From assembly GCA_026390165.1 (NCBI GenBank), contig JAPLGM010000024.1:1-64000 (forward strand): DNA of 64,000 bases, written 5' to 3'. Under the pieces are notes generated by a model, which searched no databases, was not told the DNA's origin, and worked only from the letters and a program-made list of their open reading frames with translations. This stretch comes from Campylobacterales bacterium. GTDB lineage: Bacteria > Campylobacterota > Campylobacteria > Campylobacterales > Sulfurimonadaceae. Below, one piece after another: positions 27,587 through 41,359 of this stretch. The translations under genes were made by a program, and so were the position numbers. How positions within the stretch are numbered: position 1 is the stretch's first letter; the number at the start of each line of letters is the position of its first letter.

Positions 27587-29161
27587 TTACGCCTGAATAG
27601 TAACGTTGTTAGTCGTATTTGAGGATTCCAGTGGGAGAGTCATGGTGAGCGTTATTCCCTTGGAAGGTTCGGAGTCAAGTTCAATGGTTCCATGGAGCTT
27701 TTGGGTAATGAGGTTATAAACAATGTTCAATCCCAACCCCGTCCCTCCGGCATTGCGCTTGGTCGTCGTAAATGGCTCGAAGGCGATTTTTCGCATCTGT
27801 TCGTCCATTCCTGCCCCATTATCAGAATAGGTTAAAAGCAGATTTTTGTTTTGGATTTCAAAATAGATCGTTATGATCGCATTATGTGTAGTCTCATTGA
27901 AACCGTGCAATAACGAGTTTTGCACAAAATTGCTGATAATTTGAGCGTATACGCCGGGGTAGGATTTGAGTACTAGATCGTGATCGCCGTCGACTATGAC
28001 GGTCACCGGTAGTTTTTTGAGTTTATTATGAAATGTGAGTATTATCTCCTCAAGGTATTCGTAGAGCTTGAAATCCCTCTTTTCTTCTATACTTTGATCG
28101 ACGGAAATACGTTTAAAACTGCGAATCAAATTGGCTGCTTGGTTAATACTTTTGAGCAGAAGATCGGCGGTTTCATTCAGTACATGGAGCTTTTGTTCCA
28201 TAAAAGATTTTTTGAGGGTCCCCTCTTCAATTTGTTTGAGCAGTTCTTTGGTTTCCCTGACAATAATGGAACCACCAGTGATTGCATTTCCTAAAGGGGT
28301 ATTAACCTCATGAGCAACACCGCTAACAAGATTTCCAAGAGCAGCCATTTTTTCGGACTGTATCAGTTGAACTTGCGCTTTTTTCAATGTATCAAGCGAA
28401 TCATTAAGCTCTTTCGTTCGTGATTCTACCCGTGATTCCAAATGATTAGTCAGCGATTCCGTATCGGCTAAAAGCTGATTAAATGCGTTATACAAAGAGG
28501 TGATCTCATTGTCTGCATTGTGAGAAACGCGGAGGGCATAGTTTTTACTCTCTGCGACGGTTGTGGCTATTTTGGCTAAGGAGAGAACCGGTTTGAGTAT
28601 TTTTTTGCTTAGCGATTGCGCTGCAAGATAGACAAAAAAGAGTAATAGGATTGAAAAGAGCGATGCACTTTTTATGAGTTGTAACGTAAAAGCAGTGATC
28701 CGTTCTGTTTTTTTCTCGATATAGAGGTAGCCTAAAAGTTGACCGTTTTGTTTAATTTCGAGGGTGTTTTTGAGTTTTCCTAGTTTCCATGGATTCCATC
28801 CGGGATGTTCGTATCGTATTCCCAGCGGAAAGATGTCGGTCGGAAGGGGTTTGCGGCTAGGATTAATAGAGGTCAATAGGGTTTTGTCGGGACCATAGAC
28901 AATTGCCAAGAGAACATTATTGTTGTCATGTAAACGGTGCATATTGGTCATCGTTCCCTGAAGATCAAAAAATGCTAAGGGAGCGGTGATTAAATCTACG
29001 ACTAAATCGGCTTCCAAACGGCTTTCGCGGATAAAAGCACGTTTTTCATGGTTAATACTGTACCAAACTTGAAACAATGTTCCGAAAGTAACGATGAAAA
29101 GGCTTGAGAGAACCAAAGAAAAAATAATTTGTGATGTAATGGAGTGACTATTTAGTCGCAT
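27587..29161 (-). CDS. membrane sensor histidine kinase
   Basis: The ATG at 29159-29161 with AGGGGG upstream is preferred; the longer frame lies inside the preceding gene. The 524 residues have a first membrane helix (about 10-32), a periplasmic sensor region of about 140 residues, a second helix (about 172-192) and a HAMP-like linker with coiled coil (about 195-260). The kinase core has H-box GVAHEVNTPLGN, N-box FVQNSLLHG, DNGAGM, FEPFTTTKRN and GGTGLGLNIV. It should phosphorylate a receiver; the REC-GGDEF-EAL protein two genes upstream is the obvious candidate. The start overlaps the YfiR-like gene by 14 bases. Confidence 0.88.
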   Translation of the reverse strand: MRLNSHSITSQIIFSLVLSSLFIVTFGTLFQVWYSINHEKRAFIRESRLEADLVVDLITAPLAFFDLQGTMTNMHRLHDNNNVLLAIVYGPDKTLLTSINPSRKPLPTDIFPLGIRYEHPGWNPWKLGKLKNTLEIKQNGQLLGYLYIEKKTERITAFTLQLIKSASLFSILLLFFVYLAAQSLSKKILKPVLSLAKIATTVAESKNYALRVSHNADNEITSLYNAFNQLLADTESLTNHLESRVESRTKELNDSLDTLKKAQVQLIQSEKMAALGNLVSGVAHEVNTPLGNAITGGSIIVRETKELLKQIEEGTLKKSFMEQKLHVLNETADLLLKSINQAANLIRSFKRISVDQSIEEKRDFKLYEYLEEIILTFHNKLKKLPVTVIVDGDHDLVLKSYPGVYAQIISNFVQNSLLHGFNETTHNAIITIYFEIQNKNLLLTYSDNGAGMDEQMRKIAFEPFTTTKRNAGGTGLGLNIVYNLITQKLHGTIELDSEPSKGITLTMTLPLESSNTTNNVTIQA

Positions 29162-29693
29162 TGTATCCCCCTGTAGGTTCGATAACGGTAGCAAAATTGA
29201 GAAGTTTGTAGCTGACACTTAAATGGGCATCTTCGAGGTTGCGTTGATTGATAACAAAACGAAGCAGGTTGTTTTGCAAATAAAATCCTATCATTGCCCC
29301 TTTTTTCGTATCGTCGTCGTCGTCGCTGATGAGTAGGACATTGTTTTTGTATAAAGTATTGAGATAATGTTCATTTTGATTGGGTTTTGAATCTCGAAAA
29401 TAGAGGATATGACATTTTAATGTTTCATTTTCGGGTGTTCCGCTTGAGAGCGATATGACATTTAGAGGATGGCTGTTAAAAAGGCGTGACGAATAGCTTT
29501 TTTGAAGTGTTTTGGCAAAGGAAGTATCATTATAAATGCAAATATTATAGGACTCAACAGGTTTTGGCCACTGAATGAACATCGCAAATCGCTCCAGATA
29601 GGCTGCTTTGATACTCTCTTCAGAGATGGCGAGCAATGAAGTGGCATGGCAAAGGCAAACAAAGGCTAAGGTAGCAACTTTCGTCGAACGCAT
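29148..29693 (-). CDS. YfiR/DUF4154-family periplasmic protein
   Basis: The 181 residues have a signal peptide (cut near LLA-IS) and a YfiR-like domain: ESIKAAYLERFAMFIQWP, YNICIYNDTSFAKTL, CHILYF, VLLISDD and GAMIGFYLQNNLLRFVINQ. In Pseudomonas, YfiR is a periplasmic repressor of the diguanylate cyclase YfiN. Here it is coupled to a REC-GGDEF-EAL gene (one-base overlap, TAATG) and to a histidine kinase, so it may instead gate that kinase's periplasmic sensor. DUF4154 proteins near TonB receptors are common in my experience, but the signal is unknown. Confidence 0.85.
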   Translation of the reverse strand: MRSTKVATLAFVCLCHATSLLAISEESIKAAYLERFAMFIQWPKPVESYNICIYNDTSFAKTLQKSYSSRLFNSHPLNVISLSSGTPENETLKCHILYFRDSKPNQNEHYLNTLYKNNVLLISDDDDDTKKGAMIGFYLQNNLLRFVINQRNLEDAHLSVSYKLLNFATVIEPTGGYNATK

Positions 29694-31402
29694 TAGATCA
29701 AATCTGGTTTGGGTTCACCCAGAAAATACCCCTGTGCATAATCGATCCCCATTGATTTTACAATCTCGTATACTTGCGCACTGTGGACGAATTCTGCGAC
29801 GGTTTTTACCCCTATTTTACTCGTAAAAAAGAGAATTGATTCCGTCACGACTTGGGATTTTTGATTGACGTCGATATCCTTGATGTAGATACCATCAATT
29901 TTAACAATAGCGAGGTTTAGATTACCAAGTTGAGCGAAGTTCGAACACTGAACCCCAAAATCATCCAAACACAGATGATATCCCATCTCTGTTAGCCGAT
30001 TAAGATGTCTTTCGGCAAGGGGATTGGTTAGAATACTGCTCTCTTCAAGAATTTCGAAATAGATTCGGTCGGCTTCGATCCCGTAATGGATCCGTGTCTG
30101 CTCTATAAATTCCACAAAATCTTCTTCTAGAAGATCCTGATCGGTAATGTTGATCGTAAATCCGAGAGTATTATCAGCAAATTTTGCGCACGCTTGATCA
30201 AACATCCGTTGTGTTATTTGATGGAGCAACCCTGCATATCGGGCCGTACCGAGGAAAAGAAAAGGGGTGTATATGACTCCATCATGCTCAAGACGGACAA
30301 GGGTTTCGTATTTGACGATCATCCCTGTTTTACAATCAACGATCGGCTGAAAATAGGCAATCAATTTATCGTGATCGAGGGCATCTTTGAGCCATTTAGT
30401 CCATTTGGTATTTTCTTTGATTTGTGTGATAACCGCTAGATCATCGGAATAAACCTGTACACGGTTTCGGCTCATTTTTCGTGCTTCACGCAGTGCGATT
30501 TCGGCTTTTTGAATCATATTTCCCATATCGTGCTTGACAACGCCCATCGTAACATTGATCCGATGCTCTATTCCGTTAATAAGAAACGAGTTTTTGGTGA
30601 TACTGCTTTGGATAAGGAGAACCTCTTTTTGGATATCTTGAACTTCTGTATAGCTGGTTAATATGGCATAGATATCGGCTTCTAAACGGTAGATTTTACA
30701 TATAGAAGAGGAGGTGTCACGCAAAATTTTGGCAAACTGCAACAGCATTTGATCCCCTACCTCAAATCCGTATACGTCATTGATCATACTGAAGGAATCA
30801 ATATTCAGCAAAATAAGTGACATCGGCTTCTCGGTGTCTAGGTCGTAGTTGAGTTTGACCCGATTTCCCAGACCGGTCAAACTATCGGTGATCAAGGTGG
30901 CGTATATCTCATTTTTTTTATTGAGGAGTTCAATGATTTGTTTGTATTGCGAAAGGGCGCTGCGGATCGTTGTGTAGAGCCGATCGGTTGTTAACTCCGT
31001 TTTTTCTTTATAGTCGTTGATGTCGTAATGATCGATAACATATCGCTCAGGTGCCGCTCCAGGCTGACCTGTGCGGATAATGATCCGTACCATCGTATTA
31101 TTGAAGCGATAACGGATGATTTCGACAAGATCCAGACCTGCCGTATCGGTTTCCATGACGACATCGAGTAAGATAACGGCGATATCATCATGGTGTTTTA
31201 AAATTTCTGTCGCTTCTTTGGCGCTGTAGGCGGAGAGAAAATGGAGTGGTTTTCGGTCGTAGGTAAAATCATGAAGAGCCAGTTTGGTAAAGGAGTGCAC
31301 TTCAATATCGTCATCGACAATGAGTACAATCCACGACGTACCGAATGATTCATTCTTCTCTTCTGGAGCAAATAAAAGTTCATCTGTATCCATTATATCC
31401 AT
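29693..31402 (-). CDS. REC - degenerate GGDEF - EAL response regulator
   Basis: The 569 residues have three domains. The receiver (about 20-150) has VLIVDDD, the acceptor Asp in ILLDVVME, Thr in IIRTG and Lys in NDYKEK. The GGDEF domain (about 170-320) has RLEADIYAIL where GGDEF should be, so no cyclase activity is expected. The EAL domain (about 335-565) has ETLVR in place of EALxR but keeps the catalytic Glu, FTINITDQD, EILEES, LDDFG, VKIDG and VAEF, so phosphodiesterase activity is likely. It is the first gene of the unit and probably the output of the kinase encoded downstream. Confidence 0.88.
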   Translation of the reverse strand: MDIMDTDELLFAPEEKNESFGTSWIVLIVDDDIEVHSFTKLALHDFTYDRKPLHFLSAYSAKEATEILKHHDDIAVILLDVVMETDTAGLDLVEIIRYRFNNTMVRIIIRTGQPGAAPERYVIDHYDINDYKEKTELTTDRLYTTIRSALSQYKQIIELLNKKNEIYATLITDSLTGLGNRVKLNYDLDTEKPMSLILLNIDSFSMINDVYGFEVGDQMLLQFAKILRDTSSSICKIYRLEADIYAILTSYTEVQDIQKEVLLIQSSITKNSFLINGIEHRINVTMGVVKHDMGNMIQKAEIALREARKMSRNRVQVYSDDLAVITQIKENTKWTKWLKDALDHDKLIAYFQPIVDCKTGMIVKYETLVRLEHDGVIYTPFLFLGTARYAGLLHQITQRMFDQACAKFADNTLGFTINITDQDLLEEDFVEFIEQTRIHYGIEADRIYFEILEESSILTNPLAERHLNRLTEMGYHLCLDDFGVQCSNFAQLGNLNLAIVKIDGIYIKDIDVNQKSQVVTESILFFTSKIGVKTVAEFVHSAQVYEIVKSMGIDYAQGYFLGEPKPDLI

Positions 31403-31824: not shown

Positions 31825-31857
31825 TTCACGCTAACCTTACGTAAAGAGAGCTATACT
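31825..31857 (+). promoter_or_regulatory. corA promoter with direct-repeat activator box
   Basis: TTCACG (31825-31830), five bases, CTTACG (31836-31841), ten bases, then TATACT (31852-31857). The 11-base period and the ten-base distance to the -10 element match the geometry of PhoP/OmpR-family boxes that replace a -35. The same arrangement occurs at 32978-33010 and 36521-36553. Confidence 0.6.
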
Positions 31858-31903
31858 ACTTCTCAAAGGTTATTTATGCAAACAATACGTACAGAAGATA
31901 GTA

Positions 31904-32971
31904 ATGTCTAAATCATTGAGCACCTCTTCCGATAAAGCGGGCTTTCCCCCTGGTGCTCTTGTTCACGTCGGTGATATTCATCAAACACAGACAACAATTA
32001 CTCTCATTCATTACGATAAAGAGGGAGTGCACGAGTGTGAAATCACCTCCGTGGAATCGATAGGTGAGTATGTAAAAAAAAATACCGTTACGTGGGTTAT
32101 CATCGAAGGACTCAGCGATGCGGATTTGATCGCGAGAATAGGAGAGCTGTTTACTATCCATCCTCTCGTTCTTGAAGATATTTTGACGACGCACCAGAGA
32201 CCGAAATTTGAAGAGTATGACCATTATCTCTACGTTGTTCTCAAAAGTCTTATGGCTTCGAGTGAAGTATTCACCATCAATAATGAACAAATCAGCATTT
32301 TGGTTTTGGAGAATCTTGTTCTCTCTTTCAAAGAAAAATCCGATAAGCTTTTTTCCCCCGTCAAACAGCGCATCCAAACCAGTAAAGGGCATTTTAGAAG
32401 CATGGGGAGCGATTACCTTACCTACGCTATATTGGATATTATCGTCGATAATCTTTTTATTTTGATTGATTCGCTGGATGAGATAACTCTTACCCTTGAA
32501 GATCATTTAATCTCCGAAGAATCGACACCTTTGACCCTTATTACAATCCAAAAACTAAAACGGGAACTGATCCATATACGAAAATACGTTTCGCCATTAC
32601 GAGAGTTGTTGGCGGGAATGTTGCGCAGTGATTCCGAACTGATTCAAGAACATACAAAAATTTATCTTCGAGATGTTTCCGATCATGCTATTCGGATCAT
32701 TGAATCCATCGAATCGTATCAAAATATTTTGGCAGGGTTATTGGATATTTATATCTCCAGTATCAGCAATAAAATGAATGAGGTGATGAAAGTTTTGACG
32801 GTATTCGCCTCAATCTTTATCCCGTTGACCTTTATCGCAGGCATCTATGGGATGAATTTTACCGATATGCCTGAGCTGCATTGGAGGTGGGGATACCCTG
32901 CCATTTGGGGGGTGTTTATCCTTATCACAATGGTACTTCTTATCTATTTCAGAAAGAAAAAATGGATCTAG
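31904..32971 (+). CDS. corA: CorA-family magnesium/cobalt transporter
   Basis: The 355 residues have the CorA layout: a large cytosolic N-terminal domain (about 1-290), then two C-terminal helices. The signature GMN (in AGIYGMNFTDMPEL) closes the first and RKKKWI ends the protein after the second. It forms a pentameric channel for Mg2+ and related divalent ions. It is a single gene following a promoter with the shared direct-repeat box. The ATG at 31904 has only a weak ribosome-binding site (GAAGAT). Confidence 0.92.
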   Translation: MSKSLSTSSDKAGFPPGALVHVGDIHQTQTTITLIHYDKEGVHECEITSVESIGEYVKKNTVTWVIIEGLSDADLIARIGELFTIHPLVLEDILTTHQRPKFEEYDHYLYVVLKSLMASSEVFTINNEQISILVLENLVLSFKEKSDKLFSPVKQRIQTSKGHFRSMGSDYLTYAILDIIVDNLFILIDSLDEITLTLEDHLISEESTPLTLITIQKLKRELIHIRKYVSPLRELLAGMLRSDSELIQEHTKIYLRDVSDHAIRIIESIESYQNILAGLLDIYISSISNKMNEVMKVLTVFASIFIPLTFIAGIYGMNFTDMPELHWRWGYPAIWGVFILITMVLLIYFRKKKWI

Positions 32972-32977
32972 CATTAA

Positions 32978-33010
32978 TTCAAACACGGTTCACACAATTA
33001 TATGTATACT
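32978..33010 (+). promoter_or_regulatory. promoter of the isomerase gene with the shared box
   Basis: TTCAAA (32978-32983), five bases, TTCACA (32989-32994), ten bases, then TATACT (33005-33010), 29 bases before the ATG of the isomerase gene. It starts seven bases after the corA stop codon, so the gene has its own promoter of the same type as corA. Confidence 0.58.
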
Positions 33011-33039
33011 TAGAAATAAATAACCCATAAGGATTTAGT

Positions 33040-33834
33040 ATGTTTAAAAAAATTATTAGTTCGGTGGTAACTGCACTACTATTGGCGTCGTCACTTCAAG
33101 GGCGGACGATTGCCCCCGATGAGATAAAAGAGTTTTCGGCACAAGTATTGCATATTGATTTAAATACTGCCTCAAAAGAGATTCAAGATAAGATCGCGGC
33201 AGATTACACGCAGAGGGTTAAACTTGCCGATATTCTTGTGGAGAAACTCCAAAAAGATCCTCAGTTTGTTCAGCTCTCTGAGACTTTTGCCTTTGATTTG
33301 TGGTCGAAACGGATTGCGGAGTCTGTCAATCCAACAGACGATGAGCTGAAGCACGTGTTCAATGAGAGCAAAAGTATGCGTGTACCAACAGGTTATAACG
33401 TTCGTCATATTTTGGTGATGGAGGAGACATTAGCGGATGATCTTTTAAAGCAGTTAAACGCCAAAACGGGGGAGGATCGAAATAGACTATTCTCCTCATT
33501 GGCGCTAAAAGAGAGTCTTGATTTAAAATCACGGCAAAGAGGGGGTATGGTTGGATGGGTTGATGCTACAACCGTCCCACCCGTCATTATCGATGGAATT
33601 AAAGACAAAGAGGCGGGAACGTTTGTCAAGCTTGCTATGGGTAATAATATGTGGGAGATTATCCTTGTAGATGAGATCAACCCTGAACATCCTGCTACCT
33701 TTGAAGAGGCAAAAAATTCTTTGGTCATAATGATGCGTCAACATGCCATTGCCAATGAAGCAAAGAGACTTTTAACGCTCAATGAAGTAAAGCATTCATC
33801 GTCTCCAAAATCCGTTGGCAAACAACATAAATAA
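33040..33834 (+). CDS. parvulin-type peptidyl-prolyl isomerase, exported
   Basis: The 264 residues carry a signal peptide (about 1-21, LQG-RT), a helical chaperone-like segment and a PpiC rotamase domain (about 110-215). The domain shows NVRHILVMEE, LALKESLDLKSRQRGGMVGWV and VKLAMGNNMWEIILVDE. Such SurA/PpiD-like proteins assist folding of outer membrane and periplasmic proteins. Campylobacterota encode several (PEB4/CBF2 group). AAGGAT precedes the ATG. The promoter resembles those of corA and the SlyB-like gene, hinting at an envelope or ion-stress response. Confidence 0.87.
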   Translation: MFKKIISSVVTALLLASSLQGRTIAPDEIKEFSAQVLHIDLNTASKEIQDKIAADYTQRVKLADILVEKLQKDPQFVQLSETFAFDLWSKRIAESVNPTDDELKHVFNESKSMRVPTGYNVRHILVMEETLADDLLKQLNAKTGEDRNRLFSSLALKESLDLKSRQRGGMVGWVDATTVPPVIIDGIKDKEAGTFVKLAMGNNMWEIILVDEINPEHPATFEEAKNSLVIMMRQHAIANEAKRLLTLNEVKHSSSPKSVGKQHK

Positions 33835-33895
33835 AGTCACTTATCGCTAGAATTAAGAGGATTGACACTATTACATAGGTATAAGGAGAAAAAGA

Positions 33896-36517
33896 GTGCA
33901 ATTGCTTAATTACAGCTATGAGAGTGCTGATTCACTGAAAAAATTTATCGTTGAAAACAAGATTATAAGTGCTAATTCGGTATTGATACAACTTTTTTAT
34001 TCCCTCACGTGTAGTGAAGAGATTTATCCGATAAAAGAGGCTCTTTTGGAGCTCTTGCCGAATGCCTCGTTATTGGGTACATCCACTGCAGGGATGATTT
34101 CGGATGGAAAAATTCTGGATGGGGGTATTACGATTTCATTTTCTCTCTTCAACCACTCGCACGTAAAATCAAACAGCTTTTATGGATTGAGTATTGATGA
34201 GATTGTACCGAGACTATCGGACTCTTTGATTACCGATAAAACCAAACTTCTTGTCTGTTTTGCCAATACGTTTCGCTTTGATTCTGAGCTTTTATTACAG
34301 AAAATTACCCAAATTTATCCTGATATTGTGATCGTAGGGGGGAATGGTGGGGATGATTTGAGGTTTGAAAAGTGTGATGTTTTTTCGACAACGTGCAACA
34401 ATTGCGACGTTGCTTTTGCGGCGATCGATTCCGATTTGTTAAAAATTGAGACAAAATATCTTTTCAATTGGCATCCCATCGGGAAAGAGCTCCGTATCAC
34501 GAAATCGGTCGGAAAACGAGTATATGAAATTGATAATCAAAAAACGGTCGATATTTACGAACACTATCTAGGCAAAGAGATCCTTGAAAATATTTTACGG
34601 TATGGGATAGAGTTTCCGTTGATACAGCAAGAAAAGGGTATTGAGATAGGGAGAACCCCGCTTATTGATCATGGAGATGGGTCGTTGACATTTTCAGGAG
34701 AATTAAAAGAGGGGAGCATTGTCAAGTTTGGATATGCCAATGTTGAATACATCGAAGATTACAATAGAAGGATGCTCCTAGATCCCCTTCTTTGCAAGAG
34801 TGAAGCGATTTATATTTACAGCTGCAGCGCGAGAAGATCAATGCTTGGAACCTATTTAGATGAAGAAGTAGCCATCATCAATGAGGTAGCTGCGACATCT
34901 GGTTTTATAGCCTATGGAGAATTTTTTCACGACAGTAATAGCCACACCAACCATCTTTTAAATATTAGCACTACTTATGTGAGTTTAAGCGAAGAAGATG
35001 GGGCGAAAAAAAAGATTGGCACAGTTGCATACCCAATTAACATTGAGAACAAAGATATGAGGTTAAAAGCGCTGACAACATTGATTTCACGCACGAGTGA
35101 AGAGCTTGATGAAAAGATCCACTATTTAAAGCAATTTGAAAATATTGTTAATGAGGTGGCAATTTTTTCCATTTCAGATGAGAAAGGGATTATCACAGGA
35201 GTAAATAAGAATTTTGAAATTATTTCCGGTTATACCGAAGAAGAACTTATCGGGAAATCGCATTCCATTATAAGACACGAAGATGTTCCAAAGGAGATGT
35301 TTGCAGAGATGTGGGCTACTATCAAAAGTGGTAAAATTTGGAAAGGTCGTCTTAAAAATAAAACTAAAAATGGGATCCCTTATTATGTTGTTTCTGATAT
35401 AGGGGCTATCTATAATAGAGATGGCTCTTTTAAAGAGTATATCGCTATTCGAACGGATGTAACGCAACTTGAAGAGTACAAAGAGATATTGAAAAATGAG
35501 CTGGATTCCACCAATCGAAGTTTCGAAGAGAATATAAATTATATGAAACAGTACGAAGAGGCGATTAACTCCACAACCGCAATCATAAAAACGGACACCA
35601 ATAATATTATCAACTATGTCAATGAAAAATTTTGTGAACTCAGCGGCTATAGTTTAGCGGAGGTTATAGGTCGAAACTGTGAGGAGCTTAGGCATCAGAA
35701 GCATCTAAAATTAAAAACCTGTGATGGGATCCGAAAAGAGCTCTCAGAAAAAAAAGTCGTTCAAAAGATATTGACCAATATTAGGAAAGATGGAGAGGAA
35801 TATACCGTTAATAATCTGTTTTATCCTATTGTTGATATTGATGGGAATCTCATCGAGTATCTTCAGATAATGCATGATTTGACAGAGATTGTGACGCTGA
35901 ATGAGGAAATTGTTACAACGCAAAAAGAGGTTCTTTTTACAATGGGGGCGATTGGCGAAACTCGCTCCAAAGAGACAGGGCTGCATGTTAAGCGAGTAGC
36001 CGAATACTCCTACTTATTAGCGAAACTTTCTAATATGAGTGAAGAGGATGCCTCTTTACTCAAACAAGCTTCCCCTATGCATGATATAGGAAAAGTCGGC
36101 ATTGCCGATAACATTCTCAATAAACCGGGGAAACTCACTTTTGATGAGTTTGAAGTGATGAAAACACATGCACAACTTGGATATGAGATGCTCAAAAATT
36201 CTCAACGCCCCATTTTGAAAGCTTCGGCAATTGTTGCACTGACACATCACGAAAAATACGATGGGACAGGTTATCCTAGGGGATTGGTAGGGGAGGATAT
36301 CCCCATATATGGTCGTATAACAGCTATCGCTGATGTATTTGATGCCTTAGGGAACGATAGGGTATACAAAAAAGCATGGCCGCTAGAAGATATTTTAATC
36401 CTTTTTCGAGAAGGATATGGGAAACACTTTGATCCGAAGTTAATCCGTCTATTTTTCGATAATTTGGATCAATTTTTAGAAATTCGAGATAGCATGAGAG
36501 AGGATCTCCTCTCGTAA
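33896..36517 (+). CDS. FIST - PAS - PAS - HD-GYP sensor phosphodiesterase
   Basis: Translation starts at GTG 33896 behind AAGGAG. The 873 residues hold a FIST N/C sensor (about 1-390, with LLGTSTAGMIS, IVGGNGGDD and the C-terminal YSCSARRSMLG). Two PAS domains follow (about 410-530 and 545-665, with NKNFEIISGYTEEELIG and NEKFCELSGYSLAEVIG), then an HD-GYP domain (about 680-860). That last domain has HVKRVAEYSYLLA, MHDIGKVGI, HHEKYDGTGYP and IADVFDAL. FIST domains are thought to bind small ligands such as amino acids. The complete HD-GYP motif set predicts c-di-GMP hydrolysis. No membrane segment is seen. Confidence 0.9.
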   Translation: MQLLNYSYESADSLKKFIVENKIISANSVLIQLFYSLTCSEEIYPIKEALLELLPNASLLGTSTAGMISDGKILDGGITISFSLFNHSHVKSNSFYGLSIDEIVPRLSDSLITDKTKLLVCFANTFRFDSELLLQKITQIYPDIVIVGGNGGDDLRFEKCDVFSTTCNNCDVAFAAIDSDLLKIETKYLFNWHPIGKELRITKSVGKRVYEIDNQKTVDIYEHYLGKEILENILRYGIEFPLIQQEKGIEIGRTPLIDHGDGSLTFSGELKEGSIVKFGYANVEYIEDYNRRMLLDPLLCKSEAIYIYSCSARRSMLGTYLDEEVAIINEVAATSGFIAYGEFFHDSNSHTNHLLNISTTYVSLSEEDGAKKKIGTVAYPINIENKDMRLKALTTLISRTSEELDEKIHYLKQFENIVNEVAIFSISDEKGIITGVNKNFEIISGYTEEELIGKSHSIIRHEDVPKEMFAEMWATIKSGKIWKGRLKNKTKNGIPYYVVSDIGAIYNRDGSFKEYIAIRTDVTQLEEYKEILKNELDSTNRSFEENINYMKQYEEAINSTTAIIKTDTNNIINYVNEKFCELSGYSLAEVIGRNCEELRHQKHLKLKTCDGIRKELSEKKVVQKILTNIRKDGEEYTVNNLFYPIVDIDGNLIEYLQIMHDLTEIVTLNEEIVTTQKEVLFTMGAIGETRSKETGLHVKRVAEYSYLLAKLSNMSEEDASLLKQASPMHDIGKVGIADNILNKPGKLTFDEFEVMKTHAQLGYEMLKNSQRPILKASAIVALTHHEKYDGTGYPRGLVGEDIPIYGRITAIADVFDALGNDRVYKKAWPLEDILILFREGYGKHFDPKLIRLFFDNLDQFLEIRDSMREDLLS

Positions 36518-36520
36518 AAG

Positions 36521-36553
36521 TTCACGCTAACTTCACGGAGAAAAAGGTATACT
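36521..36553 (+). promoter_or_regulatory. promoter of the SlyB-like gene with the shared box
   Basis: TTCACG (36521-36526), CTAAC, TTCACG (36532-36537), ten bases, TATACT (36548-36553). It is the cleanest of three copies; the corA copy shares even the spacer CTAAC. It lies 30 bases before the ATG of the glycine-zipper gene. Confidence 0.62.
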
Positions 36554-37136: not shown

Positions 37137-37523
37137 ATGAAAAAAATAGTTTTAGCAGCAGCAACAATGATTCTTCTTATGAGCGGATCGGTTCAGGCCC
37201 GTGGTTATGGTGGTGGGCATCATAGATCTGGTTCTGCTCATTATTATGGCGGTGGATGGGGCTATGGAGGGTGGGTCGCTCCTCTCTTGTTTGGCGGAGT
37301 TCTTGGGTATGCCGCTTCACGTCCTACTGTAGTCTATGATAGTTCTCCCACCGTTGTTTACACGACACAACCCCAAACAATGGTGATACAAAGCAGTACA
37401 CCTGCACCTGTTGTTCAAGAGAATAACATGATTTCGGATGACCCATCAGGGTATGAAGAGCGTTGGGTCTATTTTGAAGATTGCCAATGTGAGCGAAAAG
37501 TGCTTGTGAATATGAGACAGTGA
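37137..37523 (+). CDS. small exported Gly/Tyr/His-rich protein
   Basis: The 128 residues have a signal peptide (cut near VQA-RG), a Gly/His/Tyr-rich stretch (RGYGGGHHRSGSAHYYGGG) and one hydrophobic segment (about 42-58). A Thr/Val/Pro-rich linker leads to a tail with a CxC pair (EDCQCERK). It follows the SlyB-like gene by 25 bases and should be co-transcribed. The His-rich part could bind metal, but this is inference. The family is not recognised beyond general exported proteins. Confidence 0.7.
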   Translation: MKKIVLAAATMILLMSGSVQARGYGGGHHRSGSAHYYGGGWGYGGWVAPLLFGGVLGYAASRPTVVYDSSPTVVYTTQPQTMVIQSSTPAPVVQENNMISDDPSGYEERWVYFEDCQCERKVLVNMRQ

Positions 37524-37563: not shown

Positions 37564-38007
37564 TTATGCGTTGTTTATTGTAATGTGATCATCCAGACGG
37601 ATGATATGACCATGGTCATCAAAATAAACCGTAACAAATTGGCTATTGACACACTCTTGCAGCTGCGTATCGTCGACGTTAAAATAACTGGAATAATCGT
37701 TAGAATGATAGATCAAATGCTCACTTGGAGCTTGGTGTCTGTTGAGTCTTGAGAGTATAAACAGCACTATAGGAGTTGCGATTAACATCCATATGGCCCG
37801 ATCAAAGGTAACACTATGGATTTCGCCAAAAATCCAATCGGATAACTCTTCCGCCGGTGCACCTAACGTAATGATTCGATAAAATATGTGAAACACAGGC
37901 TTCCATAAATAGAAAAAACCCAGCCAAAGAAAAACAGTTATGATGTCCCAAATGATTCGTTTGATTCTAGGTAATTCACGGCGTTTGTTAATGATTAATG
38001 TTTCCAT
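37564..38007 (-). CDS. pgaD: PgaD-like PNAG synthesis accessory protein
   Basis: The ATG at 38005-38007 with AAAAGGTTAAG upstream lies four bases after the pgaC stop; a longer frame overlaps pgaC. The 147 residues have two membrane helices (about 22-42 and 73-93) and a cytosolic tail. In E. coli PgaD binds PgaC and c-di-GMP bridges the two to activate synthesis. The identification rests on position after pgaC and on the two-helix topology, since PgaD is poorly conserved. It converges on the Gly-rich protein gene. Confidence 0.7.
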   Translation of the reverse strand: METLIINKRRELPRIKRIIWDIITVFLWLGFFYLWKPVFHIFYRIITLGAPAEELSDWIFGEIHSVTFDRAIWMLIATPIVLFILSRLNRHQAPSEHLIYHSNDYSSYFNVDDTQLQECVNSQFVTVYFDDHGHIIRLDDHITINNA

Positions 38008-38011
38008 ATTC

Positions 38012-39304
38012 TTAACCTTTTTTGACCTGTTGATGTGCACCACGATCGGGACTAACCCATCGTGCACGACCTTTTGTACCGAATAACACTTTTGGAAGAG
38101 CCGTTACCGCCGTAAACAAATTGAGGAGCCAATAGGCAAACGGGTACCAAATCATCCAAAAATAATTTTTTCCCAGACCTTGGTCATAATGACCATCTAG
38201 CCATTTGCTGACACCGAACTGTACCAAACAAGCACCGATTAGAATCACACTGCTTTGATCCGGCAAAATTGGTGATTGCTGAGGCATTAAATACGCTACG
38301 GGAACAAATAAACTAATGAACCAGACTAAAAAGACCAATACCATACTGTACGCCCAAATCGTACTGAGCATTAGTTCAACCATTAATCCCCAAAGATGGG
38401 TCTGTTTGGGCATAAATAAAACCTTGAAGTTTTTCAGCATCACTTGTACACCGCCCATCGCCCAACGTAACCGTTGTTTCCATAGACCGCTCAATGTTTC
38501 AGGCATCAAAATCCATACCAATGCACGTGGCTCAAAACGGACATCCCAACCGTTGCTTTGCAGTTTCCAAGTAATATCGATATCTTCAGTCAGCATATCC
38601 GGACTCCAATAGCCCACCTCGTGCACTGCCGCTTTTCTAAAACCGGTAATCACCCCTGATACGGTAAAAATCCGTCCGAAACTGCGCTGTGCCCGCTTGA
38701 TCATCCCGACAATAGAGGAAAACTCGCCGACTTGAATTTTACCTAGCAGTGTTGTACGATTGCGTATTCGTGGATTTCCCGTTACGGCAGCAACTGCGGG
38801 GTAGCGGATAAAATGTTTCACCATCCAATAAACACAATATTCGTCTATCAAAGCATCTCCGTCGATACCGATCAAATACTCATGTTTTGCTACCAACGCA
38901 CCTGCTTGAAGCCCTAATGCTTTGCCTTGATTTTCAGCTAAGTTAACCACTTTTAATTTCGGATTATTTTTTGCCAACTCCAGTAATATCTCTAATGTGT
39001 TATCTTTGCTCCCATCATTGATGGCAATAACCTCAAATTCTGGGTATTTGACATTCAGCGCATACGTGATGGTTTCAATAGCATTTTGCCCTTCGTTATA
39101 GCACGGGATTAAAATACTGACCCCTTCCCACTTTTCATTCTCTCTTAAGGGTGGGATAGTATATTTTAAATAGGGTTTTTCATTTTTATAATAAAAAAAG
39201 ATGGCGCCGACGATCCACAAACTTGACATAAAGAGTGGATAATAAAATATAAACCCTAACAGCGTATGCCATAGTAAATGGACAAATACAATAAAAGTGG
39301 TCAT
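38012..39304 (-). CDS. pgaC: poly-beta-1,6-N-acetylglucosamine synthase
   Basis: The 430-residue GT2 glycosyltransferase has N-terminal and C-terminal membrane helices around a catalytic domain. It shows SILIPCYNEG, INDGSKDNT, GIDGDAL (DxD region), TGNPRI, EDIDITW and the QxxRW motif KQRLRWAMG. It polymerises UDP-GlcNAc into PNAG and moves it across the inner membrane. It sits between pgaB and pgaD, nine and four bases away. PNAG is a biofilm adhesin. Confidence 0.92.
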   Translation of the reverse strand: MTTFIVFVHLLWHTLLGFIFYYPLFMSSLWIVGAIFFYYKNEKPYLKYTIPPLRENEKWEGVSILIPCYNEGQNAIETITYALNVKYPEFEVIAINDGSKDNTLEILLELAKNNPKLKVVNLAENQGKALGLQAGALVAKHEYLIGIDGDALIDEYCVYWMVKHFIRYPAVAAVTGNPRIRNRTTLLGKIQVGEFSSIVGMIKRAQRSFGRIFTVSGVITGFRKAAVHEVGYWSPDMLTEDIDITWKLQSNGWDVRFEPRALVWILMPETLSGLWKQRLRWAMGGVQVMLKNFKVLFMPKQTHLWGLMVELMLSTIWAYSMVLVFLVWFISLFVPVAYLMPQQSPILPDQSSVILIGACLVQFGVSKWLDGHYDQGLGKNYFWMIWYPFAYWLLNLFTAVTALPKVLFGTKGRARWVSPDRGAHQQVKKG

Positions 39305-39313
39305 GAATCCTTC

Positions 39314-41359
39314 TTACTTATTGGGCATAGTATTCGTATACATGCGCACTGGTTTTTGAGCAAATGCTTTATTCATCATATCGGCATCAGGATTGTTTGT
39401 AAACACACTGTCAGGATAATACGCGATGTGATGAACACCTAAACCATACAAATATCGTATGGTGCTATTCAACTCTTGGGAAGAAATCGGCTCATTATGT
39501 TCTCTCCAATTAACCGTTTGCAACTCAATAACAGTCCGTTCGAGCCCACATTGCTCTTGTTTGACATGCTTAACTATTTCACCTAAAAAGTGCTCTGGGT
39601 CACCGGCTTGTTCCATATACGGCATCGCCATAATGGCGGTATAGTCATATTTCTCTATTGATTGGGCCAAACTTTGTGCATACCACTCTTGGGAATCACT
39701 GTTTAGGGCGACTTGAGCGTATAAGTTACGCGCTGTTTTAAGTCCCGGTTGTTCATCTCTTACAATTTGAGCTAACTGCATTGCAAACTCATCTAAATAG
39801 TGTGTTTTGAGTTTAGTCCACTTTACAAACTGTTTTCGATCCGTTCTGATTTTAGTGACACTTTGCGATAATCCCCATTTTTTATATTGATTACGGGCAA
39901 ATGTACTGTCATCTTCAAAATCGGACAGCGTTACATCGTCATGAAATAAGAGTCCGTCAATGTAGGCCGATTTTGCTAAATCTTCATAGATTTCTTCTAT
40001 AACTTTTCGCGCTTTAGGTGAAAATGGGGATAATCTCGGATATCCCATATTGAGATGGGTCGGATCAACCTGCAATGTCACGACTGTATCTTTGGCCGCA
40101 ACATTGCTCTGTGGTAATTGCCAAGCCAGCATTGGCATCCAAGCATAAATACGCTTGACTTGCGTACATTTGGCAATTTGCCATGAAACGCGGTTAAACA
40201 GATTGGATCGCATCGGTACGTTTCGGTTTGGAAAATAGACATAATCCGCTGCACCGTTGGCATCAGGGTCAGCAAACGCTTGCAGATAGACCGTATTGAC
40301 CCCTAATTTTTTAATACGATCAAGCAATAGTCCAATATTCTTTTCCTGCTGGATTGGATCTGGATCATAAATATAGTCCAAATCAATGTGAGCTGCTTTG
40401 GTCGTTCTAGCATCGTCGGTAAAATTACCACTTCGCATCCACATGAGAAAATCTAAATCCCGAAGAGACATATTTCCCTCTACCAATATACGCCGAAGCC
40501 CCCACAAAGGTGTAATGGCTGTATTGCTACCGTCATCCAACGTTAATCCTAGGGGCATACCTAAGCGCTCTGCAATGCGGCGAATCTCGATATTATAGCG
40601 CCCGTACGGCCACACCATAACGCGGGGCTGTTGCCCTGTATAGGCTTTCAAAAAGGTATTATTTTCTAATAAATCAGTGTAAACGCGCTGTTGATATGTT
40701 TTTTCATCCTCATACCCCCTTTTCTCAGCAAGCCATTGGCGAGTGGTAAGAGCTGGCTGCATATTACCTTGCGGGTTGCCGGGGATCCCTTTATGCATAC
40801 AACAACTATGACTGGCAATCTCCACCAACCCGCTGCTGACCATCTTTTTGATCTCGGCTTGACTCAAGAACTTGTTGCGATCAATCATATGCCCGTCAAA
40901 ATCGACTTTATCTTTGGCTCTCATCCAATTCCCGACGAGTGCGATAACACTCGGGATTTTGTATTTTTTCAAAATCGGATAGGCATTAGCATACACAGAC
41001 TGGTAACCATCATCAAAAGTGATCAAAACGGCTTTATTCGGTAACGGCTTCCTTGTTTTTCGATACGTTAAAATATCATTGATACTAATAAAGTGATACC
41101 CGTTATCCATCAACCAATGTATTTGCGCATTAAAATTCGATGGAGTTACCGCATAGGTCGAATCTAGCGTTTCACTTTTATTGGCTATTTCATGGTAGCT
41201 TAGTATGGTAAACTCGTTTTCGTTTTGATCTCGACTACATATATTAGGCAACTCATTTGCCATAATACAACTGCTTGTAATACCTATGAATACCCAAATT
41301 AGTTTTAATAGTGGTTTGAGTATATTATGCCTAGCTTTTAGCGTTTTTGATGTAATCAT
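39314..41359 (-). CDS. pgaB: PNAG N-deacetylase PgaB
   Basis: The 681 residues have an N-terminal export segment (about 15-35) and a polysaccharide deacetylase domain (about 45-300: LSYHEI, ITFDDGYQSVYANAYP, VEIASHSCCMHKG). The C-terminal glycosidase-like domain (about 320-665) shows IDLDYIYDPDP, DGLLFHDDVTLSD and YTAIMAMPYMEQ. It partly deacetylates PNAG in the periplasm, which is needed for export. No pgaA porin gene precedes it; the next gene upstream is a divergent P-type ATPase. The length matches E. coli PgaB (672). Confidence 0.92.
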   Translation of the reverse strand: MITSKTLKARHNILKPLLKLIWVFIGITSSCIMANELPNICSRDQNENEFTILSYHEIANKSETLDSTYAVTPSNFNAQIHWLMDNGYHFISINDILTYRKTRKPLPNKAVLITFDDGYQSVYANAYPILKKYKIPSVIALVGNWMRAKDKVDFDGHMIDRNKFLSQAEIKKMVSSGLVEIASHSCCMHKGIPGNPQGNMQPALTTRQWLAEKRGYEDEKTYQQRVYTDLLENNTFLKAYTGQQPRVMVWPYGRYNIEIRRIAERLGMPLGLTLDDGSNTAITPLWGLRRILVEGNMSLRDLDFLMWMRSGNFTDDARTTKAAHIDLDYIYDPDPIQQEKNIGLLLDRIKKLGVNTVYLQAFADPDANGAADYVYFPNRNVPMRSNLFNRVSWQIAKCTQVKRIYAWMPMLAWQLPQSNVAAKDTVVTLQVDPTHLNMGYPRLSPFSPKARKVIEEIYEDLAKSAYIDGLLFHDDVTLSDFEDDSTFARNQYKKWGLSQSVTKIRTDRKQFVKWTKLKTHYLDEFAMQLAQIVRDEQPGLKTARNLYAQVALNSDSQEWYAQSLAQSIEKYDYTAIMAMPYMEQAGDPEHFLGEIVKHVKQEQCGLERTVIELQTVNWREHNEPISSQELNSTIRYLYGLGVHHIAYYPDSVFTNNPDADMMNKAFAQKPVRMYTNTMPNK

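Follow-up and report, generated by a model that had tools for sequence, protein, structure and literature searches.

Which regulator reads a tandem repeat that stands before three neighbouring genes of a Sulfuricurvum-like bacterium, and do these genes form a magnesium regulon? The question is raised by a 64,000-nt stretch (G000:C30:1-64000, called the window below) of a genome of 2.64 Mb. Three promoters in the window carry a box of two hexamers ahead of the -10 element TATACT, as follows.

31825..31857, + strand: box 1, TTCACG-CTAAC-CTTACG-N10-TATACT, corA promoter; matrix score 22.7; weakest backing from relatives
32978..33010, + strand: box 2, TTCAAA-CACGG-TTCACA-N10-TATACT, promoter of a PpiC-type isomerase gene; matrix score 21.4
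36521..36553, + strand: box 3, TTCACG-CTAAC-TTCACG-N10-TATACT, promoter of a YcfJ-like glycine-zipper gene; matrix score 32.7

The original prediction had read these boxes as a PhoP-like magnesium regulon. Its description of the sites was confirmed on the sequence: the positions, the 11-base period and the exact 10 bases to TATACT are correct for all three, and the spacer CTAAC is common to the corA box and the box of the glycine-zipper gene, which had been called slyB-like. Box 3 is the only perfect double repeat of the three. In box 1, located 47 nt upstream of the corA ATG, the second hexamer is degenerate (CTTACG), and in box 2 the first one is (TTCAAA). The hexamers are one helical turn apart and lie over the -35 region, which is a class-II position, with N10 or N9 to the -10 element. 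As they are 21 and 10 nt away from the -10 element, neither hexamer can be an ordinary -35.

Comparison with related genomes shows the three boxes to be copies of one genuine regulatory element in the DNA. Most likely it is the mark of a small regulon for envelope stress, and not of one for magnesium. The strength of the motif comes from its recurrence in relatives and not from the window by itself. With up to 3 mismatches, 3 matches were found in the window vs 0.69 expected, and 3 of 100 shuffled windows also reached 3. The window evidence by itself is only suggestive of more than chance, and a scan of the window with the pattern minus the -10 element gave background level only. A matrix was built from 15 training sites, all from other genomes. 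The three boxes had the highest matrix scores in the window, followed by a site with a score of 13.1, and no score above 18 was obtained in simulated windows. The score of box 2 is not fully independent, because one of the training sites is the ppiC orthologue site of genome G008.

The genus sample consisted of 41 genomes. The refined box, TTCACR-CTAAC-TTCACR-N10-TATACT, i.e. TTCACRCTAACTTCACR-N10-TATACT, was found with up to 3 mismatches at 20 sites in 10 of these genomes, vs 2 sites with the reversed control. Orthologues of the glycine-zipper gene carry the box in G027 (L051 7953-7985) and G029 (L103 2568-2600), and a weaker one in G025 and G033; their promoters in G013, G019, G022, G034, G035 and G038 have no box. 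The ppiC orthologue of G008 is preceded by TTCATA-TACTG-TTCACA-N10-TATACT (L052 2268-2300), and no box was present at the remaining ppiC orthologues read. Absence at orthologous genes in relatives, on which the original prediction was to fail, was observed for some of these genes, while other glycine-zipper and ppiC orthologues have kept the box. Further first genes behind the box in relatives encode a second glycine-zipper protein, TPR, OmpA/Pal-type, MotA, PgaB, PLDc_N and TolC proteins and small exported proteins. By a simple hydropathy rule, membrane or exported proteins are encoded by 20 of 26 downstream first genes, compared with 51% of the full gene set of these stretches (P 0.006). Outside the genus, an order-wide search revealed a few variant sites, TTCACAATAATTTCACA-N10-TATAAT (L093, L094, L095, L096 and L097 (1501-1533)), which precede helix-hairpin-helix (ComEA-like) and cytochrome-c-like genes. 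A search of the literature gave nothing relevant on a TTCAC box in Campylobacterota.

In the genome under study, scanning with up to 3 mismatches yielded 40 matches vs 39 in the reversed control, which is background, and the only matches with 0-1 mismatch were two in the window. The spacer-aware pattern without the -10 element yielded three perfect double repeats in the 2.64 Mb, i.e. box 3 (C30:36521) and the sites C19:160546 and C19:161859. The two C19 sites also emerged with relaxed -10 spacing and have N9 to TATAAT instead of N10. Each is followed after 33-37 nt by a gene of TolC type that belongs to an RND efflux operon, and the box at C19:160546 is kept in the near relative G040. The number of good sites in the genome is therefore about five, the three window boxes and the two at the TolC genes, and not the few dozen hits expected earlier from a genome-wide scan. 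In the stretch G000:C19:160546-161891 (L156:8547-9891) two TolC-type genes follow one another in tandem, and a separate perfect TTCACA-N5-TTCACA box stands before each of them. This pair precedes the RND efflux operon and is divergent from a kinase-regulator operon whose regulator is RR047 (see below).

The genome encodes 20 OmpR-family regulators, and none of them is located in the window. The one that follows the box is RR039:

G000:C22:158465-159157, - strand: RR039, OmpR-family response regulator; PF00486 (Trans_reg_C) over cut-off

RR039 has the REC and winged-helix domains of an OmpR-family regulator. Its kinase, a reading frame of 422 residues, has two transmembrane segments and a short periplasmic part, and only HisKA and HATPase_c were recognized in it by Pfam. 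Proteins with at least 60% identity were counted as RR039 orthologues; the next paralogue has 47%. RR039 occurs in 10 of the 41 genomes, the box in 10 and both in 8 (hypergeometric p 1.9e-5). The 10 RR039-positive genomes contain 18 of the 20 box sites (binomial 1e-9, the genomes not being independent). The recognition helix LRTHIKNLRK is identical in all 10 orthologues, while the identity of the whole proteins goes down to about 60%. In G001, G019 and G028, where the regulator is 71-77% identical to RR039 of the genome under study, a full box is present at the 3' end of the regulator-kinase operon, and a degenerate box is found at the end of this operon in G013 and G033. RR039 is most likely the regulator of the box.

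It is fairly probable that the boxes are sites of an OmpR-family regulator, RR039 being the likeliest one, which activates class-II promoters of a small envelope regulon. Binding, activation and the signal are what we infer. A head-to-tail pair of regulator subunits would occupy TTCACR-N5-TTCACR, with the repeats covering about -39 to -23, and the bound dimer would stand in for the missing -35 of a promoter with the -10 element TATACT, as PhoP does in its architecture I. RR039 and its membrane kinase would respond to an envelope or surface condition and not specifically to low Mg2+. In the window, the predicted targets are the YcfJ-like protein with its small partner and the PpiC isomerase of the periplasm; CorA is a less certain one. 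Outside the window they would include the two TolC-type proteins of the RND efflux operon, with N9 boxes. Since genes of other exported proteins carry this box in relatives, targets would turn over fast while box and regulator persist. The genes of the box cluster are listed below.

31904..32971, + strand: corA, CorA-family Mg2+/Co2+ transporter, 355 residues; PF01544 3.8e-71, TIGR00383 over cut-off
33040..33834, + strand: exported PpiC-type peptidyl-prolyl isomerase, 264 residues; PF13145 2.6e-11
33896..36517, + strand: FIST-PAS-PAS-HD-domain (HD-GYP-like) signalling protein, 873 residues, without its own box; PF08495, PF10442, PF13426, PF13487
36584..37111, + strand: exported glycine-zipper protein, YcfJ-like ("SlyB-like"), 175 residues; PF05433 2.5e-9
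37137..37523, + strand: small exported His/Gly/Tyr-rich protein, next after the glycine-zipper gene

A PpiC-type match (E<=1e-30) was found in 10 of the 41 genomes, and a corA orthologue (E<=1e-60) in 3, in one of which, G040, the contig begins inside the gene. The best NCBIfam match of the glycine-zipper protein was PRK11280, which we take to be the YcfJ family, with 84.4 bits and below the cut-off of 99. The His/Gly/Tyr-rich protein had no match in Pfam or NCBIfam; the pair of this gene and the glycine-zipper gene is kept in those loci of relatives that have the orthologue.

Several observations weigh against assigning the box to RR039 and an envelope regulon. The sampled genomes share ancestry, and the p values overstate their independence. 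The enrichment by hydropathy is not large, and envelope genes are common in the background loci themselves. Boxes 1 and 2 deviate from the perfect repeat, and the sole other readable corA promoter, in G019 (L249), a genome with RR039, has no box. No box stands before the YcfJ-like gene of G013 and G019, both of which are RR039-positive. No box was found near the RR039 operon of the genome under study, and G029 and G038 have the box without RR039. In G038 the box (L101:7812-7844) has a TolC/RND operon on one side and another two-component system on the other, and a second regulator reading the same box is possible there.

An alternative is that the box is real and is read by another OmpR-family regulator, or by several paralogues of overlapping specificity. 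The genome has 20 such regulators, one example being that beside the C19 boxes:

G000:C19:158573-159238: RR047, OmpR-family regulator

Two perfect double repeats, with N9, adjoin the RR047-kinase operon, which is divergent from one of the two, and the boxes of G029 and G038 also speak for this alternative. However, RR047 is present in 35 of the 41 genomes, most of them without the box, and it was rejected as the sole regulator since it does not track the box. Of 15 RR047 loci read in relatives, 12 had no box, 2 ended before the promoter and only 1 (G040) had a box. Of the two regulators checked, RR039 and RR047, only RR039 tracks the box, and we consider a reader other than RR039 unlikely. A KdpE-like regulator adjoining one box in G027 was rejected as a coincidence; this box serves a TPR gene, which has a box elsewhere too. 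That the three sites are merely a chance likeness to a common promoter pattern would agree with the shuffled windows and with the genome-wide matches at 3 mismatches, which equal the control. This is very improbable, as the spacer-aware motif occurs with 0-1 mismatch in other genomes, the counts at up to 3 mismatches differ from the control in the genus, boxes precede orthologues of the glycine-zipper and ppiC genes, and the box co-occurs with RR039. A chance origin may apply to the corA site alone; otherwise CorA may be a recent recruit.

A Mg2+-responsive, PhoP-like regulon over corA and a SlyB homologue, as originally proposed, is also very improbable. The PhoP box of Salmonella is (T/G)GTTTA-N5-(T/G)GTTTA, and a single direct box stands 12 (11) nt before the -10 element in the architecture I promoters, which include mgtA, phoP and slyB; corA is absent from that study of PhoP promoters (PMC3335776). 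The layout of hexamer, N5 and hexamer near the -10 element does match this architecture, and corA carries one of the boxes. The geometry claimed to be the same agrees in this layout and in the position over the -35 region, but the distance to the -10 element is 10 (9) nt. As the original prediction said, the hexamer is a different one, TTCACR vs (T/G)GTTTA. The supposed SlyB is YcfJ-like: its best match is PRK11280, it has no convincing lipobox, and it resembles SlyB only through the generic glycine-zipper domain. In addition, the corA orthologue is rare and without a box at the other readable promoter, Pfam recognized no PhoQ sensor domain in the candidate kinase, and no Mg2+ transporter is among the further targets in relatives, which are OmpA/Pal-type, TPR, PgaB, TolC and MotA proteins. 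In box hexamer, -10 distance, sensor domain and control of slyB the system differs from PhoP/PhoQ. The predicted OmpR-family regulator with a job similar to that of PhoP is retained in part, since a specific regulator of this family co-occurs with the box and the genes are envelope genes, while the Mg2+ role is given up.

The proposed small envelope regulon, with RR039 as its probable regulator, may also be linked to biofilm polysaccharide genes. Directly after the glycine-zipper pair the window contains the following operon.

37564-41359, - strand: pgaB-glycosyltransferase (pgaC-like, family 2)-pgaD operon; pgaB and pgaD over NCBIfam cut-offs

The matrix scan detected no box in the upstream region of this pgaB, whereas G020, G024 and G033 have one at their pgaB. 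As pga genes adjoin the RR039-kinase operon in relatives (G001, G028 and G033), an ancestral pga-RR039 cluster is suggested, whose two parts were separated in the genome under study.

Directly upstream of corA, on the minus strand (27587-31402), genes for a histidine kinase, a YfiR-like protein and a receiver-GGDEF-EAL protein were found. Together with the FIST-PAS-HD protein inside the box cluster this run makes the neighbourhood rich in cyclic-di-GMP genes. An 11-codon frame (31877-31912, MQTIRTEDSNV) with AAAGG upstream, resembling a ribosome site, overlaps the corA start out of frame. It was rejected as a Mg2+ leader peptide of corA as it is not conserved in G019.

The mechanism class is ordinary, and the box probably belongs to a small envelope regulon not described before; no regulon described in Sulfuricurvum was found in the literature searched. 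There is about an even chance that this is an envelope-stress regulon of Sulfuricurvum and relatives, undescribed so far, which rewires fast, keeps a fixed regulator-box pair while its targets (glycine-zipper, PpiC, PgaB, TolC/RND, TPR, OmpA/Pal and MotA proteins) are almost wholly exchanged, and was ancestrally linked to pga. If so, free-living Campylobacterota would have a candidate system for envelope stress, and the regulon would be a clear case of sites moving among envelope genes with box and recognition helix fixed. Box, candidate regulator and target list can be read from the sequence alone.

Enterobacterial Cpx and Bae systems control periplasmic folding factors, small envelope proteins and RND/TolC efflux, and these target types resemble those of the box described here. 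RR039 itself is far under the NCBIfam cut-offs for CpxR (91.4 vs 341) and BaeR (89.9 vs 380). With the PhoP box of Salmonella (PMC3335776) the box shares the direct repeat of hexamers with N5, the single direct box one helical turn before the -10 element and the class-II position; it differs in TTCACR, in the 10 (9) nt to the -10 element, in the spacer CTAAC, which is also conserved, and in targets and kinase. PceP of Sulfurospirillum (PMC7755780) is likewise an OmpR-family regulator of Campylobacterota with a direct repeat overlapping the -35 region, but the repeat is CTATW-N17-CTATW and the genes belong to organohalide respiration. The nearest parallel described in the phylum is DccRS of C. 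jejuni, an OmpR-type system controlling six genes and dccR itself, with periplasmic and membrane proteins as products (PMC7118207, PMC9449129). The parallel is one of regulon content: a small set of periplasmic and membrane targets is what the 20 of 26 first genes represent as well.

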